This document shows positions 3,993 through 28,664 of a stretch of DNA of 64,000 nucleotides, piece by piece; position 1 is the stretch's first letter, and the number at the start of each line of letters is the position of its first letter. Origin of the DNA: an uncultured Anaerolineae bacterium (lineage in GTDB: Bacteria; Chloroflexota; Anaerolineae; Anaerolineales; Villigracilaceae); contig CAIQVH010000031.1 in assembly GCA_903875215.1 (NCBI GenBank), forward strand, positions 186,001 to 250,000. The letters run 5' to 3'. The notes beneath the pieces were generated by a model. That model ran no database searches. It was not told where the DNA came from and worked only from the letters and a program-made list of their open reading frames with translations. The position numbers and the translations under genes were made by a program.

Positions 3993-4895
3993 TTAATACT
4001 TCCCGTAATTGACCGGCTCGCTCAGCAGCGGCGCGACTTTGAGCTTTTTCTGTTTCTCCGCGCCTAGTTTGGCCCAATAGGCTTCGCGATCGGTGACACC
4101 GTAGACCCATTCCTCGAGATACTGCTGGGTCAGTGCCGGGTCGGCGGAGATTTTGTCCCAATCCAGGTAGAACTCGTTGTCGCGGTCGTAATAGCCCTGG
4201 GCGTAGCTGGGATGCGCGGCGTGTGGTACATGACAGACGGCACTGACGATGAAGCCGGGGATCATCGTCCGGTTTGGGTCGGAGCGGATGACGCTCTCGT
4301 CGACGATTTCTTCAGCGGTCAGGATGACCTTTTTTGCGGCGAATGCAACTTCCTTCTGCTCCCCGACGATGCCCCATAAATGCGCGTTGCCCTGCGCGTC
4401 GGCGCGCTGGACGTGGACAATGGCCACATCCGGGTTGAGCGCCGGGACGGTGATGACTTCGACGCCCGAATATGGATCGGTAACGCGTTTAATCAGTGGG
4501 TTGTTGCGCTCCAGGTCGGTGGCGCCGGTCTGGTTCATTGGCAGGAAAGGCAGGCCGCTGGCGCCGGCTTGTAGGCGCGTGATCATGCCGAAGTGGGAAT
4601 ACTCTTCCCATTCGAGCTGGCCTTTTTCGATGGCGGTGCGTACAATGCGCAAACTGCCGACGCCGGGGTTGCCCATGTAGCTGAAAATCACCTTTTTGGC
4701 GCAGCCAGCCGCCACCAGCTGGTCATAGATCAGATCAGGCGTGGCGCGGGCCAGGGTCAGGTTTTTCCGTCCCTGCCGGATGATCTCATGCCCGGCTGCG
4801 AAGGGAATCAGGTGGGTGAACCCGGCGGCATAGACGGTATCGCCGTCGCTGACAAATTTTCCGATCGCGTTTTTCAGGGAGAGCAATTTTGCCAT
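3993..4895 (-). CDS. CoA-transferase family I, subunit A (GctA/IpdA-like)
   Basis: 300 residues, typical for the alpha subunit of glutaconate-type CoA-transferases and IpdA. Characteristic segments are the opening VSDGDTVYAAGFTH, the middle FSYMGNPGVGS and the later DVAIVHVQRADAQGNAHLWG. It forms a heteromer with the subunit B product encoded at 2279-3058. The gene precedes the alpha/beta hydrolase and subunit B on the minus strand, separated by a 90-bp spacer that holds a double hairpin. A GAAAGG element lies upstream of the ATG. Pathway is undefined; a short-chain or dicarboxylic acyl-CoA is likely. Confidence 0.85.
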   Translation of the reverse strand: MAKLLSLKNAIGKFVSDGDTVYAAGFTHLIPFAAGHEIIRQGRKNLTLARATPDLIYDQLVAAGCAKKVIFSYMGNPGVGSLRIVRTAIEKGQLEWEEYSHFGMITRLQAGASGLPFLPMNQTGATDLERNNPLIKRVTDPYSGVEVITVPALNPDVAIVHVQRADAQGNAHLWGIVGEQKEVAFAAKKVILTAEEIVDESVIRSDPNRTMIPGFIVSAVCHVPHAAHPSYAQGYYDRDNEFYLDWDKISADPALTQQYLEEWVYGVTDREAYWAKLGAEKQKKLKVAPLLSEPVNYGKY

Positions 4896-20856: not shown

Positions 20857-22194
20857 GTGATACCAGAAATTCGAGATGACCGTCAACAGCGAGCGTTGAC
20901 AGGCGTACCAGTTGACATGTTCCTGATCGATCCCGTCTCCGGCAACCGCGGTCCGGCCTTCTGGGTAATCGGCACCGACGGCGGCTACCTGGATAAGCCG
21001 GTCAGGGTTGCCCCTCCTGGTAACAACAGCAGCCTGGTGATGATGTCGGGCGAGCGCTACCTGGTCATCATCGACTTCGCCGGTTATCAGAAAGGCGCGA
21101 TCGGCCCCAACGGCCGGCCTTACTCGGGCAACTGGCTACTCAAGAACCAGGCTAAGACTCCCTTCCCGGGCGGCGCGGCGGTCATCGGCGGCACCACCGC
21201 CCAGATCATGCAGTTCCGCGTGAATGGAACAATGAGCAACGATACCAGCTTCAATCCGGCTGCCCCGGGCGCAACCCTGCGCAGCGGTCTGGTGGGAGGA
21301 ATCAATCCAGCGTTGGTTCGCCTGGTCAACCCGGCGACTGGCACACCTGCAGTAACAATCAACAAGACTCGCCAGCTCACTCTCAACGAAGTGATGGGTA
21401 TGCCGCAGAACGTCACCAACCCTGTAACAGGCCTGTTGACCGCTTACCCCGGCGGCCCGCTGGAGATCCTGGTCAATAACACCAAATGGAACGGTGAGCG
21501 TATCATCGGTGTTGATAATACAGATCTAAATATGCCGATGTACATCATGGAACCCATCCCGGGCTTCACCCTTGACGGCACCGGAAAGAACTGGCTCTCC
21601 GAACTGCCGAAGGAAGGCGAAACCGAAGTCTGGGAGATTGTCAACCTGACCGCCGATGCACACCCCATCCACTTCCACCTGGTGCAGGCGCAGTTGCTCA
21701 ATCGTCAGAACTTTGATACCAGGGCATACAACGCCGCTTATACGGCAGCCTTTCCAGGCGGCGGATACGACCACATGACCGGGCAACCCTATCCTGCTGG
21801 TGTTTTTATCCCGGCCTTTGGTCCGCCGCTGCCTTACGGAACTGGAACTGTGGTGGGCGGTAACCCGGATATCAACGCCCCAGGAGCGAAAAATAGGCCT
21901 TTGTATCTCAAAGGCACACCCATCCCGCCGCTTCCTCAGGAGGCTGGATGGAAGGATACTTTCGTCATGTACCCTGGACAGGTGACACGCGTGGTCATCC
22001 GCTGGGCGCCAACGGATCTCCCGGCAAATACACCCATAGCCGACGCGACCTTCCCCTTCGATCCGAATGGCGGACATGGTTATGTCTGGCACTGCCATAT
22101 CGTGGATCACGAAGACAACGAGATGATGCGTCCGGATGAAGTGATTCCCAATCCATCGGCAACCCGCAGTTTCGTTCAAGGCACAGATTACTAA
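20857..22194 (+). pseudogene. Multicopper oxidase lacking its first cupredoxin domain
   Basis: 445 residues from a GTG (20857), eight bases after GAGGAG. The sequence matches domains 2 and 3 of CotA/phenoxazinone-synthase-like multicopper oxidases: FWVIGTDGGYL near residue 40, HPIHFHLVQ (about 268) and HGYVWHCHIVDHEDNEMM at the C-terminus with the type 1 and trinuclear ligands. The first domain, which supplies the other four His ligands (two HxH motifs), is absent, as are any signal peptide and an upstream fragment in any frame. The upstream 200 bp are AT-rich and contain no gene. It is probably an N-terminally deleted, non-catalytic remnant, although the frame is intact for 1.3 kb. Confidence 0.75.
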
Positions 22195-22212
22195 ACCAAC
22201 CTGTTCCACCAG

Positions 22213-22247
22213 AGACCTTCCGGCAAAATTCACCGGAAGGTCTTTTA
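22213..22247 (+). terminator. Terminator after the multicopper oxidase gene
   Basis: AGACCTTCCGG (22213-22223) and CCGGAAGGTCT (22233-22243) form a perfect 11-bp stem with a 9-nt loop, followed by TTTT. Confidence 0.85.
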
Positions 22248-22301
22248 ACTTTCACACCTATAAAAGCAAAATTGTTATATACTTTTGCGATTGGAGTAAC
22301 T

Positions 22302-24023
22302 ATGTCGGATATAGACCTCGCCCCCCTTCAAGCAGAATTATCCCGCTTTGACCTGCAGGGCCGCTCCGGCCTGTTACCCGCTTTGCAAGCCGCGCAAAGA
22401 CTCTATGGCTGGCTGCCGCAGGAAGCCGCGGCCGAAGTCGCCAAAGCCCTGGGCGTTCCGCTGGCGGATGTGCATGGGGTGATCGAGTTTTACAGCCTGT
22501 TCTACAGCGAACCTGTCGGCAAGCGCATCGTTCGGGTTTGTACGGATGCCGCCTGCGGGCTGAAAGGTGGGGAGCAGATTTTGAGCGGACTCTGCGCCCG
22601 GCACGGAATCCAGCCAAATCAGACCACCCCTGACCTGTCCACCACAATCGAATCATCTCCCTGCCTCGGGCTGTGTGACCTGGCGCCTGCGACGCTGACC
22701 GTAGACGATGGACGCTGGACGATAGGCGACAACGAGCTACGCCCGCGGTCGATGGTTTATGGTCTGTCGTCTTTACTTACATCCAACTGCGGCAAAGGCC
22801 GCGCCGCCACGCTGGCCGAGTATGGTGCCTATCCGGCCTTGCGCCGCGCTTTGGAGTTGACTCCTGAAGCCGTCATCGCCGAAGTCAAAGCCGCGGGATT
22901 GGTGGGACGCGGCGGCGCGGCCTTCCCGACCGCCGTCAAATGGGAGGGCGCGGCCAAAGCCGAAAGTTTCCCCAAATACATCGTCTGCAACGCCGACGAA
23001 TCGGAGCCGGGGACGTTCAAGGATCGCGTGCTGCTGCTCGATGACCCGCACCGCGTCATCGAGGGGATGTGTATTGCCGCTCACGCCATTGGTGCCACAC
23101 GCGGCTACATTTACTTGCGCGGCGAGTATCCCTACATCCTGCCAGTGCTGGAAAATGCCCTGAGCGAAGCGCGCGCGGCTGGTTATCTCGGAAAGAAATT
23201 CGACATCGAAATCCGCCTCGGCGCGGGGGCTTATATCTGCGGCGAGGAAACCGCCCTGTTCGAGTCGATCGAGGGCAAACGCGGCTATCCACGCATCAAG
23301 CCGCCCTTCCCGACCACCAATGGCCTGTTCGACCAGCCAACGGTCATCAATAACGTTGAGACGCTCTGCAATGTGCCGTTGATTTTCGAAAAAGGCGCGG
23401 CGGGCTACCGTCAGATCGGCACCGAGAAATCTCCCGGCCCGAAGCTTTTCTGCGTCTCGGGCGATGTCGCCAAACCGGGCGTGTACGAAGTGCCGTTTGG
23501 GACGACTTTGCGCGAATTATTAACCATGGCCAATGGTTCTCCGGTTGACTGGTTATCCGGTTCTGCTGTTAACCAATCAACTGAACAACCGGATAGCCGG
23601 ATAACAGAAAAACTGGAAAACGGATTACAAGCTATTTTGTTTGGCGGCGCGGCTGGAGCATTTGCCACCCCCGCCCACCTGGATGTAAAACTGACCTTCG
23701 AGGATTTGCGCGCCGCCGGTCTGCCGCTCGGCTCGGGCGTAGTGATGGTTTTCGATCAATCCCGCGACCTGCGTCAGACCCTGGCGCGGCTCGGCAAGTT
23801 TTTCGCGCATGAATCGTGCGGGAAGTGCTATCCCTGCCAGTTGGGGACACAACGTCAGATGGAAATTTTGCAGCGATTGGCGAATGGTGAATGGCAAATG
23901 GGAGATTCCGAACGCTTGCAGGATGTCGGTTGGACGATGACCGATGCCAGCCTGTGCGGCTTGGGCCAGACGGCGGCGAGCGCGGTTCTTTCTGCCTTAA
24001 AGCTTGGATTGGTAAAGTTGTAA
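22302..24023 (+). CDS. NuoE-NuoF fusion, NADH-binding subunit of formate dehydrogenase
   Basis: 573 residues. Residues 1-135 are a NuoE-like thioredoxin fold with four Cys for a [2Fe-2S] cluster (CTDAAC and CLGLC). From about 165 it is Nuo[26 protein letters not shown] and [13 protein letters not shown] for FMN and NAD, and [12 protein letters not shown] for the [4Fe-4S] cluster. It passes electrons from formate oxidation to NAD. The chosen ATG has GGAG and a 5-nt spacer, like the other genes of this operon. Three stretches not expected in the family coincide with stuttered repeats: the NuoE/NuoF junction, about residues 411-440, and a short one near 527-534. FdsB-type subunits are also fused this way, so the fusion itself has precedent. 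Confidence 0.9.
22701..22777. repeat. Degenerate stuttered palindrome at the NuoE/NuoF junction
   Basis: The left arm GTAGACGATGGACGCTGGAC and following bases (from 22701) face a right arm ending GGTCTGTCGTCTTTAC (22761-22776). The arms are imperfect inverted copies made of GACGATG/GACGCTG units. In translation this is the linker between the last NuoE Cys motif and the first NuoF residues. Confidence 0.6.
23531..23622. repeat. In-frame stuttered palindrome inside the NuoF domain
   Basis: The left arm holds GGTTGACTGGTTATCCGG and the right arm CAACCGGATAGCCGGATAAC. The CCGGATAA unit is the same as in the intergenic repeat at 25706-25786. It encodes about 28 residues (including [14 protein letters not shown]) at a place where NuoF homologues run directly into the GG-rich loop. 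Confidence 0.65.
23878..23900 (+). repeat. Seven-nucleotide stutter near the NuoF C-terminus
   Basis: GCGAATG GTGAATG GCAAATG runs from 23880 to 23900 and encodes ANGEWQM. Only one arm is present. It lies between the [4Fe-4S] Cys motif and the last Cys of NuoF, a region of variable length. Confidence 0.45.
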
Positions 24024-24025
24024 AT

Positions 24026-24090
24026 TTCACCACAAAGGCACGAAGTCACCAAGAAAAACAAAACTTCGTGCCTTGTGTCTTCGTGGTAAA
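24026..24090. repeat. Intergenic stuttered palindrome between NuoEF and the ferredoxin gene
   Basis: The left arm ACCACAAAGGCACGAAGTCA and the right arm AAACTTCGTGCCTTGTGTCT, ending TTCGTGGTAAA, pair imperfectly. The arms differ by one inserted unit of about 6 nt (ACGAAG/ACACAAG wording). Confidence 0.65.
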
Positions 24091-24106
24091 GCTTTTTGGA
24101 GTTCAC

Positions 24107-24811
<705 letters not shown>

Positions 24812-24858
24812 CGACCTTCGACTTTCGACTTTTGACTTTTGACTTCTTTGGAGAATCG

Positions 24859-25698
24859 ATGAATTTTGGAATTATGCCAGTGGTTTACGGAATTCTCGCC
24901 GCCCTGACCTGGGGCGCGGGCGATTTCAGCGGTGGCGTTGCCACCAAACGTTCCAGCGCCTACGGCGTGGTGATTATCGCGCACATTTTCAGCATGATTT
25001 TGCTATTGGCGACCGCATTTGTGTTGCGCGAACCCGTCCCGCCGCTGGAGTCATGGCTGTGGGGCGGCGCGGCTGGGTTGGGCGGCGCGATTGGGCTGTT
25101 ACTGCTTTATACCGCGCTCGCCAATGGGCGGATGAGCGTCGCCGCGCCGGTCTCCGCGCTGGTGGCTGCCGGCGTGCCGGTGGTCTTTGCGGCGTTTACC
25201 GAACAGCTGCCACCCGCCCTGGTGATTGCCGGGTTTTTCCTGGCGCTGGCGGCCATCTGGCTGGTCTCCGGCGGCGGCAGCGTGGATTTCAATCTCGACG
25301 AATTGCGCCTGCCCGTCATCGCTGGCCTGGCTTTTGGCTTTTTCTTTACAACCCTGCATTTTGCCAGCTCTGAATCAGTGATTTACCCGCTTATCGCTGT
25401 TCGTATTGTCTCAATTTCCAGCCTGCTTTTGTATTCGTTGATCACCCGCCAGAATATCATTCCCAGCCGCGAGAGCATTTTCCCCATCCTGGCCAGCGGA
25501 CTGCTCGACACGCTCGGCAACGCCTTCTTCGCCCTGGCCGCCCAACTCGGGCGCGTGGATGTGGCCGCCGTGCTCAGCTCGCTGTATCCCGGTTCGACGG
25601 TGCTGCTGGCCTGGATTTTGCTCAAGGAGCACATCAGCCGCAGGCAAATGGTCGGTATCCTCGCAGCGCTGGCGGCGATTGTGTTGATAACGATATGA
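24859..25698 (+). CDS. EamA/DMT-family transporter
   Basis: 279 residues with ten hydrophobic segments in two EamA halves (AALTWGAGDFSGGVATKRS early; the second half begins near LPVIAGLAFGF). It exports or imports small metabolites; substrate not predictable. The ATG at 24859 has GGAG plus 5 nt. A longer reading from 24832 would translate the repeat arm and is unlikely. It sits between two subunits of formate dehydrogenase on one strand, so it may carry formate, a cofactor precursor or nothing related. Confidence 0.85.
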   Translation: MNFGIMPVVYGILAALTWGAGDFSGGVATKRSSAYGVVIIAHIFSMILLLATAFVLREPVPPLESWLWGGAAGLGGAIGLLLLYTALANGRMSVAAPVSALVAAGVPVVFAAFTEQLPPALVIAGFFLALAAIWLVSGGGSVDFNLDELRLPVIAGLAFGFFFTTLHFASSESVIYPLIAVRIVSISSLLLYSLITRQNIIPSRESIFPILASGLLDTLGNAFFALAAQLGRVDVAAVLSSLYPGSTVLLAWILLKEHISRRQMVGILAALAAIVLITI

Positions 25699-25705
25699 TG
25701 TATTT

Positions 25706-25786
25706 CGGTTGTCCAGTTGCCCGGTTACCCCGTTGAAGGCTAAACTGGACAACTGGAAAACCGGATAACCGGATAACCGGATAACG
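25706..25786. repeat. Stuttered palindrome with CCGGATAA units upstream of fdhA
   Basis: The right arm contains three tandem copies of CCGGATAA (25761-25784). The left arm has CCGGTTA and GTCCAGTTG; the latter pairs with AACTGGAC/CAACTGGA on the right. The fdhA ribosome binding site (GGAG) overlaps its end. It is of the same family as the in-gene copy at 23531-23622. Confidence 0.75.
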
Positions 25787-25794
25787 GAGTAATC

Positions 25795-28014
<2,220 letters not shown>

Positions 28015-28436
28015 ATAACAGCCCTGCAACCGGTAATTCCCCGGTCGCTTCTGATGTGCTCAAAGACGTTCGAAGCGCATCATGAAGATTTTCAGCGCTG
28101 GATTGCAGAATTTCTAACTCCAAACCGAGATGAACCCTTTCAGTTCCGGCTTCCCTCGGTCAGGGGCGCGGATCTCTCGGCCCTGTTCCTGGAGAGTGTG
28201 CCAGGGTGATTGTGGAAGAAGCCGGACAGTTCGTTTAATAGTTTGAAGAACGGCTGGCATGGCATAAGACAGATTATCGGTTAAAATTAAGACATCAGCC
28301 ACCACTGACCATTTGCGCAATCACCATACTGATTAACAGCCCACATGGATATTGATGGTTGTATTCATGACGGCTTGCTTTTGATCAAATGGATAGAAGG
28401 TTGTTGGATATTTTTGTTCTCAAGCAGTAATACCAA
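28015..28436. other. 422-bp region without a confident gene
   Basis: It lies between fdhA and the first HsdS remnant. Open frames are short and none carries a motif I recognise. Base composition drops toward the right. A 68-residue minus-strand frame (28114-28320) could be a degraded transposase piece, but this is a guess. Together with the broken hsdS ends it looks like a deletion scar. Confidence 0.5.
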
Positions 28437-28664
28437 ATGACACTTTATTTACGAAGTTTAGCACCAGTAGGTACTCAGCCTAATTTGAATACCAGAATTA
28501 TGAGAAATGGTTCGCTCATTTTGCCACCGCTGAGCCTGCAAGAAGAGTTTGCGGGCGTGGTGGCGTGGGTCGAGTCGCTGCGGGGGCGGATGGGCGAGTC
28601 CACGCGGCAGGTGGAGGGGCTGTTTGAGTCGTTGTTAAATCAAAGTTTTGGAGGGAAAGAATGA
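28437..28664 (+). pseudogene. Remnant of a type I restriction specificity subunit (HsdS C-terminus)
   Basis: 75 residues, including LAPVGTQPNLNTRIM, LPPLSLQEEFAGVVAWVESL and LFESLLNQSFGGKE. This is the end of a target-recognition domain plus the conserved coiled spacer of HsdS. A TAA two codons before the ATG stops the frame, and nothing upstream restores the missing 300 or more residues. No hsdM or hsdR is in the window. The stop overlaps the zinc-ribbon ATG by 4 bp, so the remnant may still serve translational coupling. Confidence 0.75.

Follow-up and report, generated by a model that had tools for sequence, protein, structure and literature searches.

Within the window (the whole stretch of DNA that was analysed, 64,000 nucleotides long), part of the SLBB domain of NuoF is encoded by an in-frame, palindromic array of octamers. 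The most probable reading, to which we assign a probability of roughly 0.7, is that a copy of a dispersed non-coding hairpin repeat entered a length-tolerant loop in an ancestor of the lineage and has persisted there as a tolerated passenger. Palindromic elements that lie in frame are familiar mainly from Rickettsia, alongside scattered cases of intragenic REPs. In this environmental lineage of the Chloroflexota, several unrelated families repeatedly enter one loop of a metabolic enzyme, and the relatives provide a natural before-and-after comparison. Both the spread of tiny repeats without an obvious transposase and the birth of protein segments from non-coding DNA become testable in this setting. 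There is also a warning for annotation: odd loops, linkers and C-termini in such genomes may be repeat DNA. The genes of the operon and its two octamer elements are:

22302-24023, + strand: fused NuoE-NuoF with 2Fe-2S thioredoxin-like, Complex1_51K, SLBB and NADH_4Fe-4S domains, NuoF being the C-terminal half
about 23533-23626, + strand: palindromic element made of octamers, in frame in the NuoF SLBB loop, with units GGTTNNCC / AACCGGAT, encoding about 31 residues
24107-24811, + strand: fdhB-like ferredoxin subunit
24859-25698, + strand: EamA-family transporter gene, within the operon
25704-25787, no strand assigned: intergenic copy of the octamer family, in the spacer between the eamA stop and the fdhA start
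25795-28014, + strand: fdhA, molybdopterin formate dehydrogenase-like subunit

The fused NuoE-NuoF is similar to the diaphorases found in bifurcating hydrogenases and in NAD-dependent formate dehydrogenases, and it probably forms the diaphorase module of one of the latter enzymes. The preliminary description had proposed that NuoF carries an in-frame copy of a spacer repeat. This was borne out, with CCGGATAGCCGGATAAC at 23589-23605 and the inverted TTATCCGG at 23553-23560, both inside NuoF and belonging to a hairpin array that lies beyond all shuffles. The two arms (23536-23570 and 23579-23613) are inverted octamer arrays with 71% complementarity, the left one reading GGTTCTCC GGTTGACT GGTTATCC GGTTCTGC and the right one AACCGGAT AGCCGGAT AACAGAAA AACTGGAA AACGGATT. 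The self-match at lag 8 is 0.60; none of 2000 shuffles came up to this value at lags of 5 to 12. The inverted-repeat score of 15 was equalled in none of 500. Among 18,439 windows of 96 nt, taken from the 442 kb of genome sampled for these statistics, only octamer elements otherwise came near on both measures. The element folds well as RNA (-32.1 kcal/mol, z -4.2) and also as DNA (z -2.8). The three tandem copies of CCGGATAA that had been described upstream of fdhA were found at 25761-25784, and a head-to-tail array of period 8 (5.4 copies in direct orientation) spans 25743-25785. In the window as a whole CCGGATAA occurs 8 times against 1.74 expected, a count that none of 100 shuffles attained, and five of the eight copies fall within the NuoF and fdhA-spacer elements. 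An Rfam search of 22000-28500 gave no match, and a literature search on the unit sequences themselves found no paper.

The NuoF stretch is a loop expansion and not a conserved NuoF element. The Pfam SLBB match ends at profile position 31 of 55, immediately ahead of the insert, and PDB homologues (solved NuoF, HydB and related chains) align on either side and break at query residues 411-439. In an AlphaFold model of NuoE-NuoF, built with no template (mean pLDDT 70) and matching the NuoEF/FdsBG/HydB folds, insert residues 412-435 have pLDDT below 50, flanked by a helix (402-409) and a strand (441-446). The loop seems to tolerate differences in length and is probably surface-exposed. It comprises 38 residues here compared with the usual 15. 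The excess is 23 over the canonical length and 27 relative to the sister, which comes near the "about 28" first estimated.

Alignment with homologues showed these residues to be missing from the sister genome, from most relatives and from the solved NuoF structures. Across 32 genomes the loop has 15 residues in 17, 11 in one (the sister, G006) and 20-38 in 14, frequencies that are biased by the return of loci through their best single alignment; L022/L091, L023/L207 and L025/L216 are apparently the same genomes, and each pair was counted once. G006 is 89% identical over residues 1-410 and is without the extra residues. In G001 (73% identical) the octamer family occupies the same point of the loop, as AATGGTTCTCCGGTTGAGCGG...AACTGGACAACCGGATAACTGGATAACA, with a fold z of -5.3, and by eye the loops of G237 and G005 may hold eroded versions. 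The copy found here is probably not recent, given that a diverged octamer copy stands at the same point in another species. As the sister lacks the insert and the more distant G001 has it, one has to assume a loss, a transfer or parallel insertions at the same point. In the tree this genome (G000) and G001 fall in different supported clades over an unresolved backbone, which leaves common origin with losses, parallel insertion and transfer as candidate origins of the two inserts.

Copies of the octamer family are dispersed over about nine places in this genome; most lie between a stop codon and the next start, and two are in frame within genes. When the 19-mer AACCGGATAACCGGATAAC was searched with up to 2 mismatches, there were 8+8 matches in G000, 27+36 in G001, 1 in G005 and none in the other 18 relatives, the reversed control pattern giving 0-1; a further 200 genomes of the phylum yielded one match, at one mismatch. 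The family is limited to part of one genus, and the two genomes rich in it are the two whose NuoF loop clearly holds an octamer element. The second in-frame copy is found where the two parts of a serine hydroxymethyltransferase-aminomethyltransferase fusion (SHMT-GCVT, L006) are linked; it was rejected as a clean insertion, the linker sequence having been replaced and being only about 2-3 residues longer. In G001 a copy lies in the frame of an ABC ATPase, its phase being judged from the open frame alone. Avoidance of stop codons by the coding copies was unsupported, since all six intergenic copies examined also keep at least one open frame. That the gene and spacer copies belong to one mobile family, as first suggested, held as far as the family goes, by virtue of a common octamer, the hairpin layout and the dispersal; its mobility we infer from that dispersal and from presence and absence between relatives. 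Also in G001, contig C2 (L168, about 4227-4493) has a long direct array of AAGCGGAT/AACTGGAT octamers of about 270 bp.

Several palindromic families with 7-mers or 8-mers as units exist here, the octamer family being one of them. The 442 kb of genome contain 30 places where short-period tandem and inverted repetition are combined, with period 7 in 12 and period 8 in 7 of them (1 and 0 in the Markov control). Such families fill all three operon spacers, the fdhA loop and probably the NuoE/NuoF linker. Besides the octamer elements, the following repeats were located in the operon, with no strand assigned:

22698-22771: probable 7-mer palindrome of the GACGATGG / GGTCTATGG family, coding for the linker between NuoE and NuoF (weak, z -1.9)
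23873-23901: GCGAATG 7-mer array in the NuoF coding sequence
24028-24090: CACGAAG-type palindrome filling the nuoF-fdhB spacer
24775-24845: CGACTTT 7-mer palindrome spanning the fdhB stop codon and the fdhB-eamA spacer (z -6.5)
26019-26106: AATCCCT-type 7-mer palindrome, in frame, in a variable loop of fdhA

The CGACTTT palindrome contains the fdhB stop codon, and its 5' arm encodes the C-terminal tail of FdhB (the last 11 residues, 24775-24811). The linker palindrome is strong in the orthologues L209 (z -7.7) and L215, and since the linker looks like a 7-mer palindrome the NuoE-NuoF fusion joint itself may be repeat-derived. The GCGAATG array was considered as a further insertion and rejected, its orthologues being equal in length.

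At orthologous positions the families are exchanged. In the NuoF loop, G000 and G001 have the octamer element, G310, G311 and G339 have palindromes of the CTTCGAC type, and others have derived or reverse forms. Matches to CTTCGACNNNGCTCAGG number 54 in G339, 21 in G099, 13 in G310 and 9 in G333, all four having CTTCGACNNNGCTCAGG or a derived palindrome in the loop, and 0-1 in each of G000, G001, G005 and G006 (control 0). The family in the loop therefore tracks the one that is abundant in the same genome. Being short, the CTTCGAC loops fold no better than shuffles (z about 0), and their assignment is based on the genome-wide family and not on the fold. The fdhA loop is built of AATCCCT units here, is GGTC-type in G006 (z -3.5) and CAGTGA-type in G005 (z -4.8), and in L023 consists of yet another palindromic or repeat sequence. 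The operon spacers swap families as well, some of these being assigned by unit words only, with folds no better than shuffles. With unrelated hairpin repeats in the same loop of relatives, the NuoF loop gives the impression of a permissive site at which small DNA of a seemingly selfish kind can land.

According to the passenger reading, the source would be a dispersed, non-coding, hairpin-forming family of tandem 8-mers in two inverted arms, and one copy would have entered the NuoF loop in the ancestry of this lineage. The dispersal suggests that it spread as a non-autonomous element, by means of a hairpin-acting activity or of template switching at microhomology. The arms would later have been altered by whole-octamer slippage and point mutation, and the copy would have been kept through the tolerance of the loop and one open frame of the element, not through any need of the protein. 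Unrelated palindromic families would have occupied the NuoF loop, the fdhA loop and the operon spacers repeatedly because selection would tolerate insertions at few other places. No transposase tied to the octamer family was found: the flanks of the three Y1_Tnp genes of the genome lack the octamer element. The empty sites compared come from other species only and none is precise, so that neither a junction nor a target-site duplication can be read from them.

In a rather unlikely extension of the exchange of families, certain loops and spacers would be seen as true landing pads whose palindromes are replaced by other families in a hairpin-to-hairpin fashion (through replication or an HUH-type process) while the positions are kept; the NuoE-NuoF fusion itself could have arisen from read-through of such a palindrome. 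It is unlikely that the hairpin is instead selected as an RNA or DNA structure, for mRNA stability or operon translation, with any palindromic family serving and families differing for that reason. Every spacer in the window does carry a hairpin between the stop codon and the Shine-Dalgarno region (z -3.1 to -6.5), and orthologous spacers and the fdhA loop often retain a strong hairpin of another family. However, there are orthologous positions without significant structure (the short spacers of L141, fdhB-eamA in L022 with z -0.35, nuoF-fdhB in L090 with z 0.8), the CTTCGAC loops show no fold beyond shuffles, and 17 of the 32 genomes lack the NuoF insert. A REP/RAYT system, in which the octamer hairpins would be REPs moved by a tyrosine (HUH) transposase, is quite unlikely. 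The copies are palindromic, dispersed, mostly intergenic and in some cases within ORFs, in line with a report on REPs (PMC3733652), and Y1_Tnp genes are present, but these are not flanked by the octamer element, the arms are tandem octamers and not a single stem, and the GTAG or CGTC tag is absent from both ends of the NuoF and fdhA-spacer copies and from the other octamer copies.

Growth by local slippage, whereby a chance 8-mer of nuoF would have become a tandem quasi-palindrome with no outside input, would account for the unequal number of octamers in the G000 and G001 inserts, and slippage typically gives rise to tandem 7- and 8-mers (a point discussed in PMC4679880). It is nonetheless very unlikely in view of one octamer consensus at about nine dispersed places here and at many in G001, missing from relatives, and of loop families that match the multicopy families of each genome. 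An adaptive protein loop of this enzyme lineage, for example in partner binding, whose DNA merely resembles a repeat, is most improbable: it has been kept in diverged form in G000 and G001, perhaps also in G237 and G005, yet its sequence is that of a genomic repeat, it is completely lost in the sister, unrelated sequences of 20-36 residues stand there in other species, and model confidence is low. Finally, the genome is a draft of 38 contigs, but an artefact of assembly or binning is hardly credible with a related insert at the same point in the independent genome G001 and frames open throughout.

The octamer element behaves like the Rickettsia palindromic elements (RPEs) and intragenic REPs. 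RPEs comprise several palindromic, hairpin-forming families with intergenic and in-frame genic copies (Ogata 2000, 2002, as reviewed in PMC10969869); they are about 150 bp long with a conserved peptide, and the host protein apparently remains functional (PMC10969869). The present system is likened to them by description: it shares the several hairpin families, the intergenic copies and the palindromic repeats in frame in genes of known function (NuoF and SHMT-GCVT; the ABC ATPase by open frame only), with a putatively still functional protein. It differs in being about 55-95 bp of tandem octamers, in having no conserved peptide beyond the octamer frame and in its occurrence in Chloroflexota. 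REPs tagged GTAG or CGTC are likewise short, dispersed palindromes, intergenic and in some ORFs (Di Nocera 2013, PMC3733652), as are the octamer copies, whereas the octamer element has octamer-repeat arms, no tag and no RAYT flanked by it. The sharing of a site is not wholly new, different REPs being on record at about the same recB site in two Xanthomonas species (PMC3733652). Short GTAGGGGCG...CGCCCCTAC palindromes starting with GTAG, possibly GTAG REPs, do occur in this same genome (L122:2944-2972, L132:18348-18375, L131:12170-12199).

Cyanobacterial STRRs are heptamer tandem repeats. With these and with the TAACTGA repeats the octamer family has in common a unit at the 7-mer scale, a mostly intergenic location, often close ahead of a start codon, a patchy distribution and, as in STRRs and LSSRs, head-to-tail direct units (25743-25785, the lag-8 periodicity of NuoF and the G001 arrays). 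TAACTGA heptamers form direct repeats and hardly any inverted sets (PMC4679880), whereas the octamer element has two inverted arms, a hairpin and clear in-frame coding copies. MITEs such as the QMITEs of Coxiella, for which in-frame fusions are described (PMC5896051), resemble it in being non-autonomous and hairpin-forming and in occasionally extending ORFs in frame. The octamer element is smaller and, although inverted overall, displays neither the terminal inverted repeats of an IS nor a target-site duplication in a comparison confined to inexact empty sites. What is new is the architecture of octamer arms, the lineage and the sharing of one enzyme loop and of operon spacers by several unrelated families.

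Elsewhere in the genome, the CCA-adding enzyme (L136:2012-2075; G000:C16:562012-562075) has a clean addition of 15 residues encoded by an in-frame GGGAATCGGGAATTGG palindrome, from a family other than the octamer one, that is absent from 7 of 7 orthologues. The G006 orthologue already reads CCCGAATTCCTTGACCTG where the element ends CCCGAATCCCTTGACCTG, which hints at microhomology with the empty site. Near the start of a CbiQ-type open frame (L119:9465-9509) there is a palindrome GATTGGTAGATTGGGA..TCCCAATCTACCAATC, which could lie in the upstream spacer and not be coding. In the window, a coding tile near the 3' end of fdhA (27916-27996) has an unusually good fold (z -3.8). A second FdhA homologue (L149; G000:C16:573787-575994) has one in-frame TGA, as in several relatives, which probably encodes selenocysteine.
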